From Pontibaca salina (GTDB taxonomy: Bacteria > Pseudomonadota > Alphaproteobacteria > Rhodobacterales > Rhodobacteraceae), in contig NZ_JAEIJD010000009.1 of the NCBI RefSeq assembly GCF_016307205.1, positions 1 through 64,000 on the forward strand: a stretch of DNA of 64,000 nucleotides, read 5' to 3'. A program made the position numbers and the translations under genes. Numbering within the stretch: the stretch's first letter is position 1; each line of letters opens with the position of its first letter. Positions 32,482-34,307 of the stretch are shown here, one piece after another. The notes beneath the pieces were generated by a model. The model did no database searches. It saw only the letters and a program-made list of their open reading frames with translations, and was not told the DNA's origin.

Positions 32482-32487
32482 TTTCGG

Positions 32488-32519
32488 CGCGTATAGCGAG
32501 GTGAGCTGCGCTATACGCG
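32488..32519 (+). terminator. Terminator hairpin downstream of mltG
   Basis: A perfect 11-bp stem (CGCGTATAGCG at 32488-32498, CGCTATACGCG at 32509-32519) with a 10-nt loop begins 7 bp after the mltG stop and is followed by TTTGG. It likely insulates the fabF-mltG transcript from the gene transfer agent promoter immediately downstream. Confidence 0.65.
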
Positions 32520-32541: not shown

Positions 32542-32570
32542 TTGACAATCCGTACGGTTTCACGTATAGG
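32542..32570 (+). promoter_or_regulatory. Near-consensus promoter upstream of the GTA cluster
   Basis: TTGACA (32542-32547), a 17-bp spacer and TATAGG (32565-32570) make the best sigma-70-type promoter I see in the window. Transcription would start near 32577, about 105 bp before the first GTA gene. The transcript meets an intrinsic terminator after roughly 55 nt. No activator site (for example for GafA or CtrA) is evident by eye: no TTAA-N7-TTAA is found here. Confidence 0.65.
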
Positions 32571-32596
32571 TTGTGTCATGCTAGGGGAAATGAGCA

Positions 32597-32633
32597 AGCG
32601 ACTGCAGGGGTGATCCTGCCGGTCGCTTTTTTT
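32597..32633 (+). terminator. Leader terminator (attenuator candidate) before the GTA genes
   Basis: AGCGAC and GCAGG (32597-32608, one bulged T) pair with CCTGC and GTCGCT (32615-32627), with a 6-nt loop, and are followed by seven T residues (32627-32633). This is a textbook Rho-independent terminator placed between the promoter at 32542 and the first GTA gene at 32681. It would yield a short RNA of about 55 nt unless bypassed. Confidence 0.75.
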
Positions 32634-32680
32634 ATTTCTGTCGTGCGGAGATCATTTTCGCATGAGGTCGATGAACAAGC

Positions 32681-33028
32681 ATGACTTTGATTACCCCCGA
32701 AGAGCGCATTCACCGGACGGCGGAATTGCTGGCGTCGCTGGAGGATTCGATTCGCGACCTGCGCCGACAGGCGGAAGACCTGAGCAGGCAGTTACAGGCC
32801 GGGGAGGATGCAGATCTTGTAACGGGAACCAGACGGGTTGCGGCGGTCGAAGCGCTGCTACGAACCTGCCAAAAGGTGGAGGCAAGCCTTGTCGAACAAC
32901 AACAACAGAGACAGGCCGGAAACATACAGGGCGGGCAAGCGCTCGACCTGGTGCAGGCTCGACTTGAGGTCGGGTGCAGATTGGCTCGCTTGCGCGCCTG
33001 TTGCGACCCGGGAAAGATTTCTGAATGA
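32681..33028 (+). CDS. GTA ORFg1, small terminase subunit
   Basis: First gene of the gene transfer agent cluster. In Rhodobacter capsulatus the ORFg1 product has been shown to act as the small terminase that recruits DNA for packaging. The 115-residue protein is helical and highly charged, with predicted coiled coil over about residues 10-45 and 65-100 and a Gln run at about 72-76. The ribosome binding site is weak. Its 3' end overlaps the large terminase frame by about 65 bp. Identification rests on position and helical character more than on a motif. Confidence 0.8.
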   Translation: MTLITPEERIHRTAELLASLEDSIRDLRRQAEDLSRQLQAGEDADLVTGTRRVAAVEALLRTCQKVEASLVEQQQQRQAGNIQGGQALDLVQARLEVGCRLARLRACCDPGKISE

Positions 33029-34307
33029 GATTGGAGAGGGAGGGCTTTGGGCCCTCCCTTTTTTGTTCGAGTTCTGGGCATTGCCGCACCAGTTGCCGCC
33101 CTTGGGAGATTGGCGGGTCTGGGTGGTTATGGGCGGACGAGGGGCAGGCAAGACGCGGGCGGGGGCCGAATGGATGCGCCGACAGGTCGAGGGTGGCACG
33201 CCGCTGAGCCGGGGGCGCGCGCGGCGTCTGGCGCTGGTGGGCGAAACTTACGATCAGGTGCGCGACGTGATGGTATTTGGCGAGAGCGGCATATTGGAGT
33301 GCTCGCCCCCGGATCGTCGTCCCATCTGGAAAGCGAGTGAACGTAAACTGGTCTGGCCGAACGGGGCCTCGGCGCAGGCGTTTTCGGCACATGATGCCGA
33401 GGCGTTGCGCGGGCCACAATTCGATGCCGCCTGGGCCGATGAACTGGCCAAGTGGAAAAAGGCGGATGAAGCTTGGGATATGCTGCAATTTACCTTGCGG
33501 CTCGGGGATGACCCAAGGGTGTGCGTGACCACGACGCCGCGCAATGTCGGGGTGCTGAAACGATTACTGGCGGCACCATCGACCGTGGTCACCCATGCGC
33601 CGACCGAGGCCAATCGGGCCAATCTGGCGGCGGGCTTTCTGGAGGAGGTGCGCACGCGCTATGCCGGCACGCGGCTGGGGCGGCAGGAACTGGATGGCGT
33701 GCTGCTGGCGGATACCGAGGGCGCGCTGTGGACCGGTTCGGCGCTGGAAACGGCGTGGATTGCAGATGTACCGGCGCTGGACCGCGTGGTCGTGGCGCTG
33801 GACCCCGCAATAAGTGCAGGCGGGGCTGCGGATGAATGTGGCATCATCGTGGTCGGGGCTTGCACGAAAGGGCCACCACAGGATTGGCGTGCCTATGTGC
33901 TGGCCGATTGCACGGTGCAGGGGGTCAGTCCGACGGGCTGGGCCAGAGCGGCGATTGCGGCGATGGAGCAATTCGGGGCCGAGCGGCTGATCGCTGAGGT
34001 GAACCAAGGTGGCCAACTGGTGGAGGAAGTGATCCGACAGGTGGATCCGCTGGTGCCGTTCAAGGCGGTGCATGCCACGCGCGGCAAGGCTGCGCGCGCC
34101 GAACCGGTCGCGGCGCTTTATGAGCAAGGGCGGGTGCGGCATGTGCCGGGGTTGGAGCTGCTGGAAGAACAGATGTGCCTGATGACCGCGCGCGGCTATG
34201 AGGGCGCGGGCTCGCCCGACCGGGTGGATGCGCTGGTCTGGGCACTGCATGAATTGATCATCGCGCCCTCGCGGCAGCTATTGCAGCCACGTCTGCGGGT
34301 GCTCTGA
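32964..34307 (+). CDS. GTA ORFg2, large terminase subunit
   Basis: ATP-driven DNA packaging motor with nuclease domain. About 447 residues: Walker A GGRGAGKTRAGAEW, the conserved VGETYDQVRDVMVFGESG, Walker B-like region AWADELAKW, TTTPRNVGVL, and a C-terminal RNase H-like nuclease with VALDPAIS and SPDRVDALVWAL. The start is uncertain. The TTG at 32964 (preceded by CAGG) gives an N-terminus like other GTA terminases (SGADWL); the ATGA at the end of ORFg1 is in another frame. A terminator-like hairpin lies inside the 5' coding region at 33037. Confidence 0.93.
   Translation: MRSGADWLACAPVATRERFLNEIGEGGLWALPFLFEFWALPHQLPPLGDWRVWVVMGGRGAGKTRAGAEWMRRQVEGGTPLSRGRARRLALVGETYDQVRDVMVFGESGILECSPPDRRPIWKASERKLVWPNGASAQAFSAHDAEALRGPQFDAAWADELAKWKKADEAWDMLQFTLRLGDDPRVCVTTTPRNVGVLKRLLAAPSTVVTHAPTEANRANLAAGFLEEVRTRYAGTRLGRQELDGVLLADTEGALWTGSALETAWIADVPALDRVVVALDPAISAGGAADECGIIVVGACTKGPPQDWRAYVLADCTVQGVSPTGWARAAIAAMEQFGAERLIAEVNQGGQLVEEVIRQVDPLVPFKAVHATRGKAARAEPVAALYEQGRVRHVPGLELLEEQMCLMTARGYEGAGSPDRVDALVWALHELIIAPSRQLLQPRLRVL
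33037..33064 (+). terminator. Terminator-shaped hairpin inside the 5' end of ORFg2
   Basis: A perfect 9-bp, mostly GC stem (AGGGAGGGC at 33037-33045, GCCCTCCCT at 33051-33059) with a 5-nt loop and a T-run (33059-33064) begins 8 bp after the ORFg1 stop. It is coding sequence for the conserved GLWALPFLF segment of the terminase, so it may be partly a by-product of codon choice. Its fit to an intrinsic terminator is nevertheless good; active translation of ORFg2 would suppress it. Confidence 0.55.

Follow-up and report, generated by a model that had tools for sequence, protein, structure and literature searches.

The gene transfer agent (GTA) locus of Pontibaca salina raises the question of how the regulator GafA switches GTA production on, and why it does so in a small fraction of cells only. 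We analysed a 64,000-nucleotide stretch of DNA (hereafter the window; G000:C40:1-64000) from the 2.93-Mb genome, which holds a complete-looking Rhodobacteraceae GTA cluster in the order hisA-type gene, fabF-type ketoacyl synthase, mltG (YceG), leader, g1, terminase, portal, protease and capsid, continuing past the capsid gene up to the GTA TIM-barrel tail gene. By direct search, 16 of 61 genomes had a g1 homologue in the corresponding position. The comparative evidence points, with a probability of roughly 0.68, to control of the cluster by a promoter-proximal termination switch of the lambda-Q or AlpA type, with GafA as the antiterminator. The features on which this reading draws are collected in Table 1.

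Table 1 Leader features and first gene of the P. salina GTA cluster, in window coordinates
Feature	Position	Strand	Basis or remark
-35 element TTGACA	32542..32547	+	TTGAC exact in 177/182 profile-matched leaders
CGnnCG core of spacer motif, here CGTACG within CCGTACGG	32551..32556	+	candidate GafA-loading site
-10 element TATAGG	32565..32570	+	TA columns 97-99% conserved (177 leaders)
Start box CATGCTAGGGGA in the initially transcribed region, CAtGCTRGRAGA in the family consensus	32577..32588	+	predicted +1 inside
HP1, whole extended hairpin, outer stem 32586-32594/32631-32639 enclosing the U tract	32586..32639	+	fold, covariation
Intrinsic terminator (predicted), inner stem-loop 32597-32627, T run 32627-32633	32597..32633	+	kept in 164/167 leaders, chosen by a profile covering this region
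HP2, stem 32641-32647/32659-32665, consensus CUCGUGCGG..GCAUGAG	32641..32665	+	sequence conserved
GTA g1 (small terminase) ORF, first gene after leader	32681..33028	+	ORF, conserved ATG

The -35 and -10 hexamers of the window lie 17 nt apart, and the first-pass annotation had placed and read this promoter exactly as we find it (TTGACA-17-TATAGG, 32542-32570). At the level of sequence it is a sigma70-type promoter with a near-consensus core, and the pattern TTGACA-N16-18-TATA occurs a single time on both strands of the 64 kb, with 0.0 occurrences expected from 40 dinucleotide shuffles; promoter scans that require a T at the last -10 position miss the TATAGG promoter. The -35 element was near consensus throughout the leaders examined, and the -10 element of relatives was often weak (for example TAGAAA or TACACC). 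Judging from the -10 spacing, transcription is predicted to start at A32578, which corrects an earlier estimate near 32577. Between the mltG stop codon and the promoter lies an inverted repeat (GCGCGTATAGCG / CGCTATACGCG, 32487-32519), which may be a weak terminator for mltG or a regulator site.

The segment from 32577 to 32640 folds at -27.8 kcal/mol, compared with -16.1 ± 2.9 kcal/mol for shuffled versions (z = -4.0, 0/200 as good), and the fold bears out the hairpin with seven Ts that the first-pass annotation had reported ahead of the first GTA gene. The extent given at that time was too short, since an outer stem encloses the U tract. With the U tract starting at about +50, the RNA ending there would be about 50-56 nt long. 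Counting as terminators those hairpins of 12 kcal/mol or stronger that have four or more Ts in the next five positions, we found one in 164 of 167 distinct leaders and in 6.4% of dinucleotide shuffles, a count that measures conservation and not independent discovery because the leaders had been chosen by a profile covering the terminator region. Within HP1, 13 of 20 pairs were changed on both sides, with 64 double-change cells against 22.5 when shuffled (0/500 as high), and pairing dropped to about half in slid versions of the stem. Conservation in relatives and compensatory changes in the stem, the two signs by which the first-pass annotation had proposed to judge the hairpin, were thus both present. 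As far as sequences can tell, the leader holds an intrinsic terminator ahead of the first gene, and its hairpin is under selection as a terminator.

Two further parts of the leader may have a role beyond termination. The outer arms of HP1 coevolve (z = -9; 0/5000 permutations in the divergent subset), yet the 3' arm would be untranscribed when the polymerase stops. HP2, which lies just downstream of the terminator and adjoins a Shine-Dalgarno-like GAGG, is strongly conserved in sequence with little covariation, and is intact in 95 of the 167 leaders. The outer stem and HP2 could act in the read-through RNA. A more specific idea, which we hold only tentatively and consider on balance unlikely, is that together they form an RNA element of read-through transcripts only, working either inside the antitermination complex, in the manner of put or nut, or as a checkpoint for RNA processing; if so, the GTA leader would pair an RNA element with a protein antiterminator that is loaded on DNA. 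Separately, directly behind g1 the opening codons of the terminase gene hold a terminator-like hairpin followed by six Ts (33034-33066), and the close relatives L003 and L004 have similar ones. As a second designed terminator this candidate was rejected, since its frequency of 23/149, against 7-18 in synonymous-codon shuffles, does not clearly exceed what coding constraint would give.

We assessed the distribution of the module with a profile made from 29 leaders, applied to regions upstream of g1 or the terminase gene in genomes of the same family. It detected the module ahead of g1 in 102 of 120 distinct loci of the family, although the loci were sampled mostly by terminase similarity and its true frequency in the family may be somewhat lower. 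In a separate collection of named Rhodobacter, Paracoccus, Thioclava and Gemmobacter loci, with R. capsulatus, the source of the archetypal RcGTA, among them, it was present in 80 of 80, and the covariance model R1 had a match at that position in every one of these. Promoter, hairpin and T run are often retained even in leaders that diverge too far for the profile (for example L042, L013 and L088). The loci of R. capsulatus DSM 1710 and SP108 were located via the RcGTA portal sequence from PDB, and both (L141 and L142) carry the module, with TTGACA-17-TAGAAA, the start box CATGCTAGGAG, the hairpin AAGCGCAACGGGAAACCGTTTGCGCTT with its T run, and then HP2. As judged from these matches, the module is family-wide and not peculiar to P. 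salina. GTA terminases at 28 loci of other alphaproteobacterial families had no comparable promoter-terminator module, and searches for more leader copies in the genome or the class returned only weak generic hairpins.

The leader is single copy per genome and always at the GTA. Among viral contigs with leader motifs (L250-L297), 47 of 48 were GTA clusters filed as viruses, and no phage ancestor of the leader was found among viral contigs with the two patterns used. In one genome (G081) the GTA has decayed, a deletion having fused the N-terminus of the terminase to a GTA tail gene (L129:1599-3066), and the leader and gafA remain despite this decay. GTA clusters lacking the module were also seen (L008, L009, L011, L107, L108 and L120), several of which share CATACAGGCAA.AAAGGTATCGAG before g1; GafA is present in these, and they are likely to be under another mode of control.

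The position of mltG directly upstream of the leader in the window could mean that the hairpin is an insulator, which stops mltG transcripts short of the GTA genes next to an incidental promoter. A further terminator in the 200 nt ahead of the -35 element was seen in only 46 of 177 leaders. We regard this as very unlikely, given that the spacing between promoter and terminator is fixed, that an insulator would be expected before the promoter, and that in R. capsulatus a distinct terminator lies between mltG and the promoter. In L271 and L252, moreover, mltG is 1.7 and 4.3 kb distant, respectively, and the module has remained beside the GTA genes.

Two short blocks flanking the -10 element were conserved across relatives. 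Between -35 and -10, the C and G columns of the CGnnCG motif are 86-96% conserved (177 leaders), and the box at the start site is 97-99% conserved at most positions (167 leaders), exceeding the -10 element itself. In 171 of 174 leaders, the -35 element and the start box are 37-38 nt apart, and the distance from the start box to the U run is mostly 42-47 nt. Neither the CGnnCG motif nor the box would be expected of a plain sigma70 promoter. A sigma-dependent pause at the start box is not well supported; GCTRGRAGA is invariant, but the box is -10-like in only about half of the leaders, the second -10 position being A or G (about 45% of leaders have TAGRAG, about 54% TGGRAG, n = 167). A second CCGTACGGT element was observed in many leaders at a fixed position 35-40 nt upstream of the -35 element (L022, L027, L041, L069, L079 and others), with CGnACG[GC]T in 31 sequences against 3 expected, and this is possibly another GafA site.

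In 124 of 167 leaders an ATG coincides with the start site, and two conserved hairpins lie side by side, as might be seen if the leader were an RNA switch or coupled attenuation to translation, with an alternative antiterminator fold that responds to a ligand or a leader peptide. Such a mechanism is highly improbable here. AAG, AGG or ACG replaces the ATG in the remaining leaders and the lengths from box to U run fall in all reading frames, so that a leader peptide, for which neither ATG nor frame is conserved, was discarded as a candidate; the leaders showed no conserved alternative pairing and no Rfam riboswitch match. Searches against Rfam gave no match for the leader above the gathering score (best sub-threshold score 21.4 bits, with 45 needed), and only two tRNAs above threshold in the whole window.

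The first-pass annotation had also offered a separate RNA of about 55 nt as an alternative to attenuation. Such an RNA is probably made, as a by-product of termination, and it would be discrete, at 50-56 nt, with a conserved 5' end, which speaks for a trans-acting small RNA. That it acts in trans is nevertheless the least probable of the readings considered: the inner stem and loop of HP1 vary freely among relatives and present no conserved accessible seed, the conserved unpaired bases number only about ten and overlap promoter-proximal elements that act at the DNA level, and the leader, without an Rfam match, occurs once in each genome and only ever next to the GTA genes.

As the candidate antiterminator, the genome encodes one full-length GafA of 368 amino acids, with a DUF6456 domain (PF20057) scoring 212.2 bits against a curated cut-off of 26.3. 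GafA of R. capsulatus binds a 50-bp fragment that covers 76-125 bp ahead of the g1 start codon (PMC6363796). We found that this fragment, CATTGCGGACGCTCTAAGGTAGAAATAAGCCATGCTAGGAGAGGTGGGCA, comprises the spacer motif, the -10 element, the start site and the start box, and ends at the foot of the inner hairpin; it contains CGnnCG, with the resolution being that of the whole fragment and not of single bases. The C-terminal (DUF6456) part of GafA binds the 76-125 bp fragment, and the N-terminal part binds both flanking fragments (PMC9638019). By extension, GafA would bind at CGnnCG in P. salina. Across 52 family genomes, with kinship ignored, the median DUF6456 score was 213 bits in genomes with the leader and 176 bits in those without (P = 7e-8), and leader score correlated with the score of the GafA C-terminal domain after terminase divergence was accounted for (partial ρ = 0.64). 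Within the leader-bearing group alone the correlation was not significant (ρ = 0.20, p = 0.25), and at least 16 leader-less GTA clusters nevertheless have GafA. These statistics, which ignore phylogeny, are suggestive of coevolution between leader and GafA.

Published work on R. capsulatus reads GafA as an activator of initiation and leaves the terminator unmentioned (PMC6363796, PMC9638019); GafA contacts the omega subunit of RNA polymerase, the authors propose recruitment through omega (PMC9638019), and the GafA papers state that no definitive mechanism is given. GafA might accordingly act on initiation only, with the leader terminator an unregulated, constitutive brake by which leaky transcription is lowered to a constant degree. 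The weak -10 elements frequent in relatives (TAGAAA, TACACC) suggest that initiation could need help, and GafY of Caulobacter does activate initiation. We judge this account improbable, as the -35 element is near consensus throughout, compared with AATCAT in Caulobacter, and as a strong, family-wide brake must be passed for GTA production, which the GafA counterpart GafZ does.

In the termination switch that we favour, housekeeping RNA polymerase would start often at about 32578 from the near-consensus promoter, and in most cells it would halt at the intrinsic terminator at about +50 and release the short leader RNA. Once made, GafA would bind within the -35/-10 spacer as well as at the box on the start site, join the polymerase and enable it to read through the leader terminator, and through later ones, so that g1 and the remaining genes of the cluster are transcribed. 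The aligned leaders contain the promoter, the terminator and the invariant boxes at fixed spacing, conserved across the family, R. capsulatus included; we infer that termination takes place there in vivo and is relieved by GafA. The first-pass annotation had suggested an attenuator bypassed by antitermination, possibly linked to GafA or to CtrA. The GafA link gives the best fit to the comparative evidence, and the CtrA link is not supported, no binding of CtrA to the RcGTA promoter having been observed (PMC6363796). In R. capsulatus, the reporter with activity only in a small sub-population comprised about 500 bp upstream up to the g1 start codon (PMC3423380), such that the leader terminator was included in it. 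If our reading is right, the control point of RcGTA shifts from the initiation of transcription to its completion, all published RcGTA promoter reporters that reach g1 need to be read again, and a domesticated phage has retained lambda-like late-gene logic across a whole bacterial family.

The absence of any description of attenuation for GTA clusters, as stated in the first-pass annotation, is out of date, since GafYZ antitermination was published for Caulobacter in 2024 (PMC11150451). In the literature searched, including the main texts of the GafA papers, we found no description of a leader terminator in Rhodobacteraceae or at the RcGTA promoter. GTA antitermination is thus already known, and the version with a leader terminator in Rhodobacteraceae would be the new element. 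In R. capsulatus itself, the orthologous RcGTA promoter carries the same module (L141:1542-1641).

Among GTAs, the comparison is with GafYZ of Caulobacter crescentus, which antiterminates at terGTA, a terminator located behind the first gene, and also at rrnB T1 of E. coli; the GafZ element lies between -35 and -10, and the poor -35 (AATCAT) requires GafY and IHF (PMC11150451). Both systems have a GTA cluster, a DUF6456-type regulator and a regulator site between -35 and -10 (a candidate here), and in both a terminator appears to have to be passed for the cluster to be expressed. A terminator-resistant polymerase formed through GafA is proposed by analogy; of the GTA regulators, the activity has been shown for Caulobacter GafZ only. 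The systems differ in that terGTA consists of three 150-bp repeats after the first gene, in contrast to a single covarying hairpin from +20 to +56 before any gene, and in that the Caulobacter regulator is split into two proteins that are fused here in GafA. Given a near-consensus -35 here and a poor one in Caulobacter, GTA control in Rhodobacteraceae may rest more on termination.

The architectures of proven function that come nearest are those of AlpA and of phage Q. In Pseudomonas aeruginosa, the binding element of AlpA lies between -35 and -10, and 54 nt separate the start site from the beginning of the terminator (PMC7969949). The alpBCDE promoter resembles the GTA leader in this arrangement, with an intrinsic terminator ahead of the first gene, and its target lysis genes are, like the GTA, expressed in a subset of cells (PMC7969949). 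Going by the papers, AlpA has no sequence kinship with GafA, and bypass of termination is proven for AlpA and inferred for GafA. Lambdoid Q, with PR' and tR', likewise combines a late promoter, a binding element in the spacer, a start-proximal element and a leader terminator (PMC6606751). Q requires a -10-like pause element, whereas the GTA start box is -10-like in part of the family only, and no Q homologue is involved at the GTA leader. Across these systems, the position of CGnnCG matches those of QBE, ABE and ZBE (PMC6606751, PMC7969949, PMC11150451).
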